In this document: piece by piece, positions 5,854 through 9,245 of the stretch
How positions within the stretch are numbered: the first letter of the stretch is position 1
Layout of the letters: every line of letters starts with the position of its first letter
IMG/VR virus record: IMGVR_UViG_3300014720_004069
Location: 1-53,588 of that record
Length of the DNA stretch: 53,588 nucleotides
Reading direction: 5' to 3' (one strand)
From: a virus
The notes under the pieces: generated by a model
The model's input: only the letters and a program-made list of their open reading frames with translations
Told to the model about the DNA's origin: nothing
Databases searched by the model: none
Made by a program: the position numbers and the translations under genes

Positions 5854-6300
5854 ATGACAGACAGAAAAATAATCGATTCTTTCACATTGGCATCAGGGTA
5901 CGCTTTTCTATCCAATTTTCATCCATCAACCATATGGGTGGAGGGCAAGAGTTATGCCACGATCGAACACGCCTACCAGGCCCACAAGACCCTCAACGAG
6001 GAATCTCGAGAGTTGATCCGCAAGGCGAAGGATCCCTCCATCGCAAAGAAGTTGGGAAGGGGTGTGGAGATACGGCCCGATTGGGATTCCGTGAAGGAGG
6101 GGTTGATGCGAGACTTCGTGCGCAAGAAGTTCGAGTCTCCATTTCTAGCCGACCAGCTCCTCAAGACAGAGGACGCCGAACTTGTTCACAACAACACCTG
6201 GAACGATCGCGTGTGGGGTGTATGCAGGGGAGTAGGTCAGAATCTTCTCGGCAAGATCCTCATGGAAGTTCGTCAGGAATTGAAGAACTCCTCCAGTTGA
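5854..6300 (+). CDS. NADAR family protein (YbiA/RibX-type N-glycosidase)
   Basis: 148 residues. The whole protein matches the NADAR pattern: a beginning FTLASGYAFLSNFHPS, then YATIEHAYQAHKT, a GLMRDFVRKKFES helix, and the end motif NTWNDRVWGVCRGVGQNLLG. NADAR enzymes cleave N-glycosidic bonds of riboflavin-pathway intermediates, and some remove ADP-ribose from guanine bases in DNA. The start at 5854 is chosen because homology begins about 5 residues later; a GTG at 5824 would add ten residues, but it abuts its purine-rich site. The structured leader at 5789-5852 covers the ribosome-binding region. The 3' end overlaps the convergent patatin gene by 28 bp. In a phage the likely use is to undo host ADP-ribosylation (inference). 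Confidence 0.85.
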   Translation: MTDRKIIDSFTLASGYAFLSNFHPSTIWVEGKSYATIEHAYQAHKTLNEESRELIRKAKDPSIAKKLGRGVEIRPDWDSVKEGLMRDFVRKKFESPFLADQLLKTEDAELVHNNTWNDRVWGVCRGVGQNLLGKILMEVRQELKNSSS

Positions 6301-7331
6301 TCGTGCATCCCCTTCGCATCCTCGTAACCTTCTTTCAAGAGCACCTGAATGTAAGGCTGGAATATGAGGATGAATGCGAGGGAAGTCATCCAATTAGAGG
6401 GTATCAAACCCCAAGCGATGTCTTCCTGCACAGTTGCCGCTAGCGAGTCGAGGGATTTGCTTGGACGTGCAAGCATGAGGTTGATCCGTCTGTACTTGCC
6501 GTAGTAGTCCAGACCCATCGAATCGAGGAAATCGTTGATTGTGTTGGCCTTCGATACATCCTGGAAGATGTGGTTCACAGTGAGTGATTCGAACATTCTC
6601 GATGTTTGGGTGAGGATGGTGGGCTCTCGGGTCCAGTCCTGCTTCGTTTCTGGTTCAGGCAGTGTGAGCACAAGGATCTTCACTTCTGGGTCTTCTGCAG
6701 TCTTCACCTCACGATCCCTGTACATGGACATGATCGCGGGGAGGATGGGAGTGTTGTTGCAGAGGCCACCATCGATGTGCCATCCTTCTTCCAATTGAAC
6801 GGACCTGAACGCAACGGGAATCGCTCCGGATGCGGTTGCGTGCTTCGGTCCCAGGTGACTCTTGACGACCTTCCAGTTTGCCGAATCGTAGTTCCTGTCC
6901 TCTTTCGAATCCACCCAGATGTATGCCTTCTTCTCGGAGAGTTCCGTGGTGGTGATGATGTTCGTTTCAACCACACCCGTATCGATGTTTCTCCTGTAAC
7001 TCTCAACATCGAGGTTATTCTGGAGGAACTCCATGAGGGGTGAGTTATCCATGAGGGAGTAGAACTTGAGGGTGAAGATGTCACTCCACGGTACCTTGGC
7101 CACCTGACCAAATGTTACCTTGTTCCATGGTTCGATGATCTTCTCAGGTAGGTTTTCGGACGCTGCGGCCGAAACGTAAGAGACTCCGTTGAGTGCTCCC
7201 GCAGAGGAACCGCACACCGTTGTGAACTTATGTCCCCAATTTTCCGCCACATACTTGAGAAAGCCGGCCTCCCAAGCTCCCTTCACACCTCCCCCCGAAA
7301 GAACTAATGCAAACTTCTTGTTACCTTTCAT
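6273..7331 (-). CDS. Patatin-like phospholipase
   Basis: 352 residues from ATG 7331, chosen over an upstream in-frame TTG at 7346 because GGAG lies 9 bases before the ATG. All catalytic landmarks are present: the oxyanion loop GGGVKG (residues 13-18), the nucleophile elbow GSSAG with Ser43, an ASGAIPVAF block, and the DGG motif at residues 187-189 supplying the Asp of the Ser-Asp dyad. Patatins hydrolyse acyl lipids; in phages they may attack host membranes at lysis or affect lipid signalling. No signal peptide is seen, so it should act from the cytoplasm. Divergent promoter elements lie at 7364-7392. Confidence 0.9.
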   Translation of the reverse strand: MKGNKKFALVLSGGGVKGAWEAGFLKYVAENWGHKFTTVCGSSAGALNGVSYVSAAASENLPEKIIEPWNKVTFGQVAKVPWSDIFTLKFYSLMDNSPLMEFLQNNLDVESYRRNIDTGVVETNIITTTELSEKKAYIWVDSKEDRNYDSANWKVVKSHLGPKHATASGAIPVAFRSVQLEEGWHIDGGLCNNTPILPAIMSMYRDREVKTAEDPEVKILVLTLPEPETKQDWTREPTILTQTSRMFESLTVNHIFQDVSKANTINDFLDSMGLDYYGKYRRINLMLARPSKSLDSLAATVQEDIAWGLIPSNWMTSLAFILIFQPYIQVLLKEGYEDAKGMHDQLEEFFNS

Positions 7332-7363
7332 GGTGTCGATCTCCAATCTTATGATTACTTATG

Positions 7364-7448: not shown

Positions 7449-7844
7449 ATGGCGAACGGAATGAAGCAAGTGATACTTGTGCGTAAGGACCTGAAGATGA
7501 AGAAATCTCAGGTGGCCTCCCTGGTGGCGAAGGCGTCCACCGAGTTCTTCCTCGCGAACGATGAGTCCGATCGCGGAGATGAGCTGACCGTGAAGTTAAC
7601 GCCTGAAGAGACGGACTGGATCAACAGTGGGTCCATTCGTGTCGTGCTGGGGGTCAACTCTGAAGATTCGCTGAGGTTGCTCGGGATGCGAGCCGAGATG
7701 GCAGGACTTCAGTGTTACCCAGTGCAAGGCAAGATCTTTGAGGACACTGTGGATGACGGCATGTCCGAGACCCTCTGCATCGCCATCGGACCCGACGTTT
7801 CTTCAAGGATCGACAAAATAACAGGCGACTTAAAGCTGTTGTAA
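7449..7844 (+). CDS. Peptidyl-tRNA hydrolase, Pth2 (archaeal/eukaryal Bit1) type
   Basis: 131 residues, about the usual Pth2 length of 115-130. It begins with the family signature KQVILVRKDLKMKKSQVASL and ends with a CIAIGPDVSSRIDKITGDLKLL-like tail, matching the Pth2 end in which the Gly-Pro turn and terminal Lys-Leu-Leu are conserved. One change stands out: the histidine found in many members after the first helix (VAHAS-like) is lysine here (VAKAS). Pth2 enzymes release peptides from stalled or dropped-off peptidyl-tRNA. An AGGAGG site lies 6 bases before the ATG. It directly precedes the tRNA/TilS group, suggesting a shared translation-support role. Bacteria normally use the unrelated Pth1, so the source is probably horizontal. 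Confidence 0.85.
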   Translation: MANGMKQVILVRKDLKMKKSQVASLVAKASTEFFLANDESDRGDELTVKLTPEETDWINSGSIRVVLGVNSEDSLRLLGMRAEMAGLQCYPVQGKIFEDTVDDGMSETLCIAIGPDVSSRIDKITGDLKLL

Positions 7845-7879: not shown

Positions 7880-7961
7880 GCCGCTCTGGTGGAACTGGCA
7901 TACACTCCGGATTCAAATCCCGGCGCCGAGAGGCATGTGGGTTCGACTCCCACGGGCGGCA
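7880..7961 (+). tRNA. tRNA-Leu (anticodon CAA)
   Basis: 82 bases without an encoded CCA. The acceptor GCCGCTC pairs with GGGCGGC (one G-U). The D arm is closed by GTG/CAC. The anticodon loop is TTCAAAT with anticodon CAA. A long variable arm GCC-GAGA-GGC marks the class II leucine type, and the T arm is GTGGG-TTCGACT-CCCAC. The anticodon stem has one A-C mismatch next to the loop (A31-C39), so it may be weaker than normal. It reads UUG codons. Confidence 0.88.
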
Positions 7962-7984
7962 CGAAGAAACAACTTCTTCAACAC

Positions 7985-8058
7985 GGAACGGTAGCGCAAT
8001 AGGTTAGAGCCCCTGTCTCATAAACAGGTTTGTGTGGGTTCGAGTCCCACCCGTTCCA
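7985..8058 (+). tRNA. tRNA with CAT anticodon (Met-elongator or Ile2)
   Basis: 74 bases, no encoded CCA. All arms are fully paired: acceptor GGAACGG/CCGTTCC, D arm GCGC/GAGC-like, anticodon stem CCTGT/ACAGG with loop CTCATAA, T arm GTGGG-TTCGAGT-CCCAC. A paired first base (G-C) rules out a bacterial initiator tRNA. A CAU anticodon can be elongator Met, or Ile2 once C34 is converted to lysidine by TilS. The next gene is tilS, 20 bases downstream, which favours Ile2 reading AUA, but the sequence alone does not decide it. Confidence 0.88.
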
Positions 8059-8078
8059 CAAATTCTCTACGAGGCAAC

Positions 8079-8672
8079 ATGCTGAAGTTCATTGGTGAAC
8101 TACCACGTAAGTGCACGATCGCCTTCTCAGGCGGCATCGATTCCGTGGTGATCTCAGATTTTCTGATGAACGGTAAGCGCGATGTTCAACTCGCCTTCTT
8201 TCACCATGGAACGCTGAACTCGCAGCGCGCTGAGGAGTTCGTGGTGAAGTTCGCATCGGAACGTCGAGTTCCCCTGAGGATTGGACGGATTAATTCCGAG
8301 AAATCCCGCGGCCTTTCCCCTGAGGAGTTTTGGAGGAATGAACGGTATACCTTCCTCGATTCCCTGGGAGGTCCTGTGGTGACCGGACACCACCTGGGGG
8401 ACGCGATCGAGACCTGGATCTTCACCTCGCTCCACGGGGAATCGAAGTTGATCCCGTATTCCAGGGGGAACGTGATCCGGCCATTCCTCATCACTCCCAA
8501 GGAGGAGATTCGGGCCTGGGCATCGCGAAGGAACTTGTCCTGGATCGAGGATGAATCCAACACCGATCCGCGTTACATGCGCAACCTCATCCGGATGGAG
8601 ATCGTCCCGCAGGCCCTGAAGGTGAATCCTGGGATTGGAAAGATTCTTCGCAAGAAGTACTTGGCTTCTTGA
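8079..8672 (+). CDS. tilS: tRNA(Ile)-lysidine synthase TilS, short core form
   Basis: 197 residues. The PP-loop ATP-pyrophosphatase motif is SGGIDS (residues 17-22); a GHHLGDAIET block and the TilS-specific DESNTDPRYMRNLIRMEIVP segment follow. TilS attaches lysine to C34 of tRNA-Ile(CAU), changing its reading from AUG to AUA. Cellular TilS proteins are about 320-430 residues, so this one keeps the catalytic core and lacks the usual C-terminal domains. The ATG at 8079 has GAGG 4 bases upstream; an upstream in-frame ATG at 8034 lies inside the tRNA and is rejected. It follows the CAU tRNA on the same transcript. Confidence 0.88.
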   Translation: MLKFIGELPRKCTIAFSGGIDSVVISDFLMNGKRDVQLAFFHHGTLNSQRAEEFVVKFASERRVPLRIGRINSEKSRGLSPEEFWRNERYTFLDSLGGPVVTGHHLGDAIETWIFTSLHGESKLIPYSRGNVIRPFLITPKEEIRAWASRRNLSWIEDESNTDPRYMRNLIRMEIVPQALKVNPGIGKILRKKYLAS

Positions 8673-8723: not shown

Positions 8724-9245
8724 GTGAAGAAAGTAAGACTCAACCTGAAACGCGGTTCCAAACCGTGGTCATTCACGCTCTACGACTCTGCCGAGTCTGC
8801 CTTCTACCTCAAAGACGAACCTCCTTATCCGGACGGGTTCGAAGAAGAGTATAGAAAAATAGTCTCCTTGCGCCCCGGTGACATACTCGAAGTTGAGTGG
8901 GTCGGGTCCGAGTGGGTCTTCGCGGATGAAGGCGAAGATTTTCTCTTCAACCCGATCACATTGTCGTCAACAGATTACGACAAATACGACAAGGTCCGAG
9001 TTGGAAAGATCACCCCAGCCAAAGGCGCCGAGGAGAAGATGGGATACCTCGAGGTATACAGCGGTTGGATCTTTGGCGGGGACATTCCGTGGCGCCCCAA
9101 GGACTCTCGAGACGGTCTTAAAATAACCGAAGTAAAAGACGCCGTTGTATCTAAATTCGATTTCCCGAAGTTATTCTCGGACCCCTCCATGGGCCTCCTG
9201 CAACAGGAGGAAGAGGAACAGCCCCTGTCAGGGGTTCTCAACTAG
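8724..9245 (+). CDS. Uncharacterised acidic protein
   Basis: 173 residues from a GTG with GAGG 5 bases upstream. I do not recognise a family. The protein is beta-rich by pattern, with a basic N-terminus (MKKVRLNLKRGSK), then alternating hydrophobic strands such as GDILEVEWVGSEWVF and KMGYLEVYSGWIFGGDIPW. The acidic tail QQEEEEQPLSGVLN is probably disordered. TAGAAT at 8697-8702 may be a -10 element, but no well-spaced -35 is seen. It meets the HAD gene head-on with a 4-bp overlap. Function unknown. Confidence 0.7.
   Translation: MKKVRLNLKRGSKPWSFTLYDSAESAFYLKDEPPYPDGFEEEYRKIVSLRPGDILEVEWVGSEWVFADEGEDFLFNPITLSSTDYDKYDKVRVGKITPAKGAEEKMGYLEVYSGWIFGGDIPWRPKDSRDGLKITEVKDAVVSKFDFPKLFSDPSMGLLQQEEEEQPLSGVLN

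Follow-up and report, generated by a model that had tools for sequence, protein, structure and literature searches.

The presence of a tRNA with a CAU anticodon immediately upstream of a gene resembling tRNA(Ile)-lysidine synthetase (TilS) raises the question of whether the two form a functional pair devoted to the reading of AUA codons, and of how a TilS of only 197 residues should be understood. The window, that is, the whole virus record analysed here (53,588 bases), belongs by its gene content to a contractile-tailed phage and includes genes for a baseplate wedge, a T4-like late sigma factor, a glycosyltransferase and a helicase. Its host was not assignable through relatives, since the best phage helicase matches showed less than 33% identity.

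Layout of the block and identity of its TilS

As the preliminary description had proposed, a tRNA with a CAT anticodon lies just 5′ of a gene with TilS motifs, both SGGIDS and DESN...RNLIR being present. The gap between the tRNA and the tilS ATG is 19 bases. The terminator scan of this gap gave no terminator-like site, its sole match being the anticodon arm of the tRNA itself, and a sigma-70 promoter scan around the block yielded nothing exceeding chance. The features of the block are collected in Table 1; the 173-aa ORF at its 3′ side had no Pfam match. A patatin-like phospholipase gene (window 6273-7346, minus strand), divergent from PTH2, is kept in L002-L005, L077 and L078 (L numbers denote loci and G numbers records).

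Table 1. Features of the block in the window, and introns in the CAU tRNA genes of related loci
Feature	Position	Strand	Basis
PTH2, peptidyl-tRNA hydrolase type 2, 131 aa; opens the block	7449..7844	+	Pfam PF01981, 69.3 bits (cut-off 23), E 4e-19
tRNA-Leu(CAA), reads UUG	7880..7962	+	ARAGORN; Rfam RF00005, 42.3 bits
CAU-anticodon tRNA, most likely tRNA-Ile2	7985..8059	+	ARAGORN and Rfam, 63.4 bits, E 1.7e-11
CAU anticodon of this tRNA (loop CTCATAA; G1-C72; A73)	8019-8021	+	sequence
GAGG, probable ribosome-binding site of tilS	8071..8074	+	sequence
tilS, tRNA(Ile)-lysidine synthetase consisting of the catalytic domain only, 197 aa; no AUA codon	8079..8672	+	ATG start at 8079
PP-loop SGGIDS of tilS	8127-8144	+	sequence
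Conserved 173-aa ORF, syntenic 3′ of tilS in close relatives	8724..9245	+	L002-L006, L067, L068, L077, L078
Intron in CAU tRNA of L006	284-470
Intron in CAU tRNA of L068	G026:85825-86067
Intron in CAU tRNA of L117	G018:9278-9517

The product of tilS consists of the catalytic domain of TilS and is maintained by purifying selection. It reached 108.6 bits against the TIGR02432 profile (lysidine_TilS_N, cut-off 93.6) and 108.7 bits, far beyond chance, against PF01171, and it has in common with 15 cellular-type sequences the SGGxDS motif together with H104, D108, E111, D158, N161, R168, N169 and R172. Its AlphaFold2 model (pLDDT 92) found its best PDB matches in Aquifex TilS, with TMq values of 0.82-0.85, and the dN/dS of the gene was ∼0.07 when compared with L004 and ∼0.10 with L005. 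Assignment to TtcA or to another PP-loop enzyme was rejected on the basis of far weaker profile scores and lower structural similarity.

A single-domain class of phage TilS

Cellular TilS proteins are of type I, with a catalytic N-terminal domain followed by two C-terminal domains (NTD+CTD1+CTD2), or of type II (NTD+CTD1), and these are the only two types described in the literature that we found (PMC12514573). The enzymes use their C-terminal domains, residues of CTD2 being essential in type I, while discrimination against tRNA-Met has been attributed to contacts with the acceptor stem (PMC12514573). The ORF of the window ends after the NTD, and hence without even one of the C-terminal tRNA-binding domains of which both types possess at least one, so that it belongs to neither type, though its catalytic domain is that of TilS. 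The earlier claim that only the catalytic core is kept was borne out, but as the property of a widespread phage class rather than of a local truncation; the accompanying estimate of about half the cellular length is right for E. coli TilS (432-aa CDS), whereas the protein has ∼62% of the length of the type II enzyme of Aquifex (317-residue chain).

All 87 phage-type ORFs, which come from loci of IMG/VR, from PA5oct, from two huge phages and from three contigs assigned to bacterial genome bins, encode ∼194-214 aa and end after the NTD, while the bacterial proteins ranged from 251 aa, in a sequence cut off by the end of its contig, to more than 430 aa. The IMG/VR family search returned 535 relatives at its threshold, and 80 loci were kept; the underlying records are fragmentary. 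In a FastTree tree, the phage-type sequences form one side of a long branch, with a modest support of 0.715. The uniform length, the separate branch and the low dN/dS point to a maintained single-domain form. Delivery of the C-terminal domain as a separate protein was rejected, as no match to the TilS_C model PF11734, the one model used, was detected in the window.

Bacterial TilS of type I (E. coli, G. kaustophilus) and type II (A. aeolicus, M. smegmatis) have the same PP-loop ATPase fold as the phage proteins and share with them the motifs SGGxDS, HH..D..E and DESN...RN.IR. In contrast to their NTD+CTD1+CTD2 or NTD+CTD1 composition (PMC12514573), the phage enzymes consist of the NTD only and exhibit the family-specific residues W85 (within EEFWRNERY) and F136. 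The TilS of the Pseudomonas jumbo phages MIJ3 and PA5oct, 44% identical to that of the window, is single-domain as judged from its length (CDS of 612 bases, ∼203 aa), but no tRNA adjoins tilS in these phages, whose CAU tRNAs lie kilobases off, unlike in the window. It was reported as a putative TilS, and in the searched part of this first report of a phage TilS neither domain loss nor a role in AUA decoding is discussed (PMC6892783). Ralstonia phage RsoM2USA likewise combines many tRNAs with a TilS, which with 349 aa is near the length of cellular type II and is not of the short form (PMC8504454). For chloroviruses, which infect algae, the viral TilS was proposed to assist with AUA codons, whose frequency is 12-13 times that of the host, and is transcribed very early (PMC7589089). 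Viral TilS serving AUA-rich genomes (chloroviruses) and TilS genes in MIJ3 and RsoM2USA were thus already known, while the catalytic-domain-only class, its linkage to a tRNA, the introns in the tRNA and the AUA-free tilS described below are new.

Identity and conservation of the CAU tRNA

The CAU tRNA of the window folds into a full cloverleaf with the features expected of tRNA-Ile2, namely the CAU anticodon in a CTCATAA loop, a paired 1-72 position and A73. An initiator tRNA-fMet, with an unpaired 1-72 position, G9 and a GGG/CCC anticodon stem, does not match these features: the first base is paired (G1-C72), as noted in the preliminary description when it dismissed an initiator, and the fMet score lies 15 nats below that for Ile2. 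Scores came from a profile classifier built on 35 bacterial CAU tRNAs, labelled by us from the E. coli annotation and genome logic, which recovered 35/35 labels in leave-one-out tests. With this classifier the window tRNA was neutral between Ile2 and elongator Met, favouring Ile2 by +1.0 nat and showing no Met preference, while the syntenic tRNAs of L004, L077 and L068 clearly favoured Ile2 (+13.8, +13.8 and +9.9 nats, respectively). A non-Watson-Crick 27-43 pair occurs in 12/14 Ile2 references and in none of the Met (0/11) or fMet (0/9) ones; it was found in 12 of 23 phage CAU tRNAs and is absent from that of the window. The latter is most likely a tRNA-Ile2, a sequence-based identification that leans on the orthologues, on the intron sites of relatives and on the linkage to tilS, its own sequence being neutral.

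Two side observations concern the shape of these tRNAs. A G27-A43 mismatch recurs in the CAU tRNAs of L005, L006, L009, L066, L117, L018 and L019, leaving four-pair anticodon stems. The CAU tRNAs of L008 (4825-4910), L070-L072, L010 (4014-4097) and L075 (3891-3973) extend to 83-86 nt, with an apparent long variable arm or extra bases, and possess GGAACGG or GCAACGG acceptor stems as in relatives of normal length.

Several relatives have a group I intron in the CAU tRNA gene. It follows U36 in L068 and L117 (Rfam scores of 87.8 and 93.6 bits), with UCAU lying opposite GUGA, and in L006, L066 and L069 it is inserted between U33 and C34, with Rfam scores of 39-41 bits that fall below the cut-off despite an E value of ∼1e-10 per record. 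All four spliced forms tested (L068, L117, L006 and L066) were read by ARAGORN as CAU tRNAs, and genes split at sites 33/34 or 36/37 were missed or misnamed by tRNA finders. The tRNA-Ile2 gene of Azoarcus also carries a group I intron. Bacterial group I introns in the tRNA anticodon loop have been reported for fMet and Ile2 genes, those in the tRNA-Ile2 of Acidovorax and Burkholderia being likewise located in the CAU anticodon loop (PMC8450103). The introns described here differ from these bacterial tRNA-Ile2 introns in residing in phage tRNAs and in using a second site, U33/C34 (PMC8450103).

Linkage of the CAU tRNA to tilS is conserved in the clade of the window, where the tRNA was found upstream of tilS in 21 of 24 loci, intron-split in five of them; L007, on whose contig no CAU tRNA was found, and the truncated L067 and L074 are counted among the 24 without one. 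Distances are mostly within ∼1 kb, reaching 5-8 kb in L065, L066, L069 and L117, and the order PTH2-tRNA-Leu-tRNA(CAU)-tilS is kept in L002-L005, L068, L077 and L078. ORFs that look like homing endonucleases, a name resting on sequence appearance (YYPDF...VEVKG), lie between the tRNA and tilS, in each case on the minus strand, in L077 (4171-4932), L010 (4108-4992) and L075 (3986-4930). The gap of L006, L008 and L009 contains a strong terminator-like hairpin (AAGGAACCTTTAGA...TCTAAAGGTTCCTT, then a T-run), so that separate transcription of tRNA and tilS is probable in these three loci, in contrast to the window.

The association does not extend to all phage TilS. In clade B, the Rfam tRNA search found no tRNA in two tilS-bearing records, G017 (230 kb) and G019 (264 kb), and the only CAU tRNA among the 12 tRNAs of G020 and G021 is Met-like (score of -4.3 in G020). 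An intron-split tRNA could evade the Rfam search, but no group I introns were found in the clade-B records. The idea that the tRNA is part of every phage TilS system was rejected on account of G017 and G019.

AUA usage and the proposed role of the pair

Counting AUA codons in the phage genes, as suggested in the preliminary description, identified AUA as the commonest Ile codon of the window, with 388 of 943 Ile codons (41%; 25.6 per 1000) in gene calls made with our own simple codon-score caller. Relative to the expectation from A at fourfold-degenerate sites, the AUA share was 1.11-fold in the window, 1.01 in G003, 0.82 in G018, 0.47 in lambda and 0.19 in KVP40. Window AUA codons aligned to AUU/AUC 71 and 78 times and to AUG 5 and 3 times; AUA means Ile here, since its columns pair with AUU/AUC and almost never with AUG, and its reassignment to Met was rejected for the same reason. 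G068 (273 kb), AUA-rich and with an Ile2-like tRNA, yielded no short TilS match, and neither did the AUA-poor G067 (369 kb). A strict link between TilS and AUA use is rejected by G068, and the short TilS appears not to be strictly required, but to be one solution among several.

The tilS gene itself avoids this codon. It contains zero AUA codons in the window, and across the family AUA accounts for 16 of 501 Ile codons, against fourfold-A expectations of 0.33-0.43. In seven loci of the window clade, 3 of 105 Ile codons of tilS are AUA versus 27 of 88 in PTH2 and the downstream ORF (p of 1e-7, a nominal value and no strict probability because the loci are related), and the other A-ending codons compared, seven in all, did not differ significantly between tilS and its neighbours in these loci. 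The bacterial tilS set showed 73 of 322, with 0.288 expected. Such avoidance fits a need to produce TilS before lysidine is plentiful, and an AUA-free tilS flanked by AUA-using neighbours is a clear signature of selection for producing TilS ahead of its product.

Taking the locus as a whole, we consider it very probable that a large myovirus carries this pair as a translation aid, in which a phage tRNA-Ile2 lysidinylated by the 197-aa TilS reads AUA. Sequence establishes the family, fold and catalytic residues of the enzyme, its linkage to the tRNA, the usage and meaning of AUA and the depletion of this codon in tilS, whereas lysidine synthesis, the choice of substrate, the benefit to the phage and a role for PTH2 are inferred. 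The phage TilS would place lysidine on C34 of the phage CAU tRNA, which host IleRS would then charge with isoleucine, allowing the reading of AUA, which is used especially in tail and baseplate genes and in those for glycosyltransferases. The host supply of tRNA-Ile2 and TilS would otherwise be limiting, and host tRNA-Ile2 may be a further substrate of the enzyme. Its nearly AUA-free gene would permit synthesis before lysidine becomes abundant. The neighbouring PTH2, an enzyme known from jumbo phages (PMC7824862), would probably recover tRNAs after peptidyl-tRNA drop-off; AUA misreading promotes such drop-off and peptidyl-tRNA hydrolase recycles the product (PMC10192219), which makes a part in the same AUA task plausible. 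The preliminary description had spoken of a self-contained AUA-decoding unit. A phage-borne AUA pair is indeed the best reading, but ‘self-contained’ is too strong, because host IleRS and the host enzymes for t6A37, a modification reported to favour lysidylation strongly (PMC11938285), would still be required, and because clade-B phages have TilS with no Ile2-like tRNA found while G068 has the tRNA with no short TilS match.

Several observations count against this translation-aid reading, namely the neutral score of the window tRNA together with its lack of a non-Watson-Crick 27-43 pair, the absence from its TilS of the C-terminal domains used by published enzymes, the AUA-rich G068 with no short TilS match, and the locally low AUA of several window-clade loci that have a CAU tRNA (L008, L070). 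The neutral score would agree with an elongator tRNA-Met, TilS being a mere neighbour that acts on host tRNA-Ile2, as would the clade-B phages in which the same TilS occurs without a tRNA (G017, G019) or with no CAU tRNA other than a Met-like one (G020, G021). We regard this as improbable, since the syntenic orthologues are clearly Ile2, the introns of relatives interrupt a CAU loop whose bacterial counterparts belong to fMet and Ile2 genes (PMC8450103), and CAU tRNA and tilS are kept together over 21 loci.

The missing domains bear on two further alternatives, both of which we hold to be very improbable. A decaying or repurposed TilS fragment devoid of lysidine synthetase activity would be in line with the loss of domains essential in the type I enzymes tested (PMC12514573), but does not agree with a near-constant length in 87 phage-type loci, a dN/dS of ∼0.1, invariant catalytic residues and an AUA avoidance specific to tilS. 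Alternatively, a short TilS that had lost discrimination could also modify host tRNA-Met, shifting host translation toward the phage. The parts contacting acceptor and anticodon stems are missing in all family members, and it is to acceptor-stem contacts that tRNA-Met discrimination is attributed (PMC12514573). Nevertheless, the phage itself needs AUG decoding, and lysidine on tRNA-Met would cause misreading, while recognition of the anticodon loop and stem may still be within reach of a single-domain enzyme.

In the current view, TilS separates tRNA-Ile2 from tRNA-Met by means of C-terminal domains extending to the anticodon and acceptor stems. As both domains are missing from this large natural family, which in one clade is paired with its own tRNA, recognition by the catalytic domain alone becomes testable, and the window-type TilS, the smallest in this analysis, could be used for AUA-decoding experiments. 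A more far-reaching version of the translation-aid reading, rather unlikely in our estimation, combines a third lysidine synthetase architecture, selecting its tRNA without a C-terminal domain, with a lysidine supply that gates the infection cycle. If so, the nearly AUA-free tilS and the replication genes would be made first, and AUA-rich baseplate and tail genes would be translated well only after enough tRNA-Ile2 had been modified. AUA is almost absent in G018 from the genes that encode DNA polymerase, ribonucleotide reductase, DnaB and the major head protein, although other A-ending codons are common there, and baseplate-type genes show AUA at or above expectation. The prediction of a strong switch, that AUA should be the most gene-variable codon, was rejected, as CTC, ATC, AGA and AAG vary more; part of the pattern is hence ordinary codon optimisation, and the gating idea stays weak. 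As a further observation on AUA use, the 40-80 kb stretch of G018 (278 kb, otherwise AUA-rich; L181/L182), in which many genes are short or missed, has a higher GC content (51-57%) and very low AUA in its called genes.
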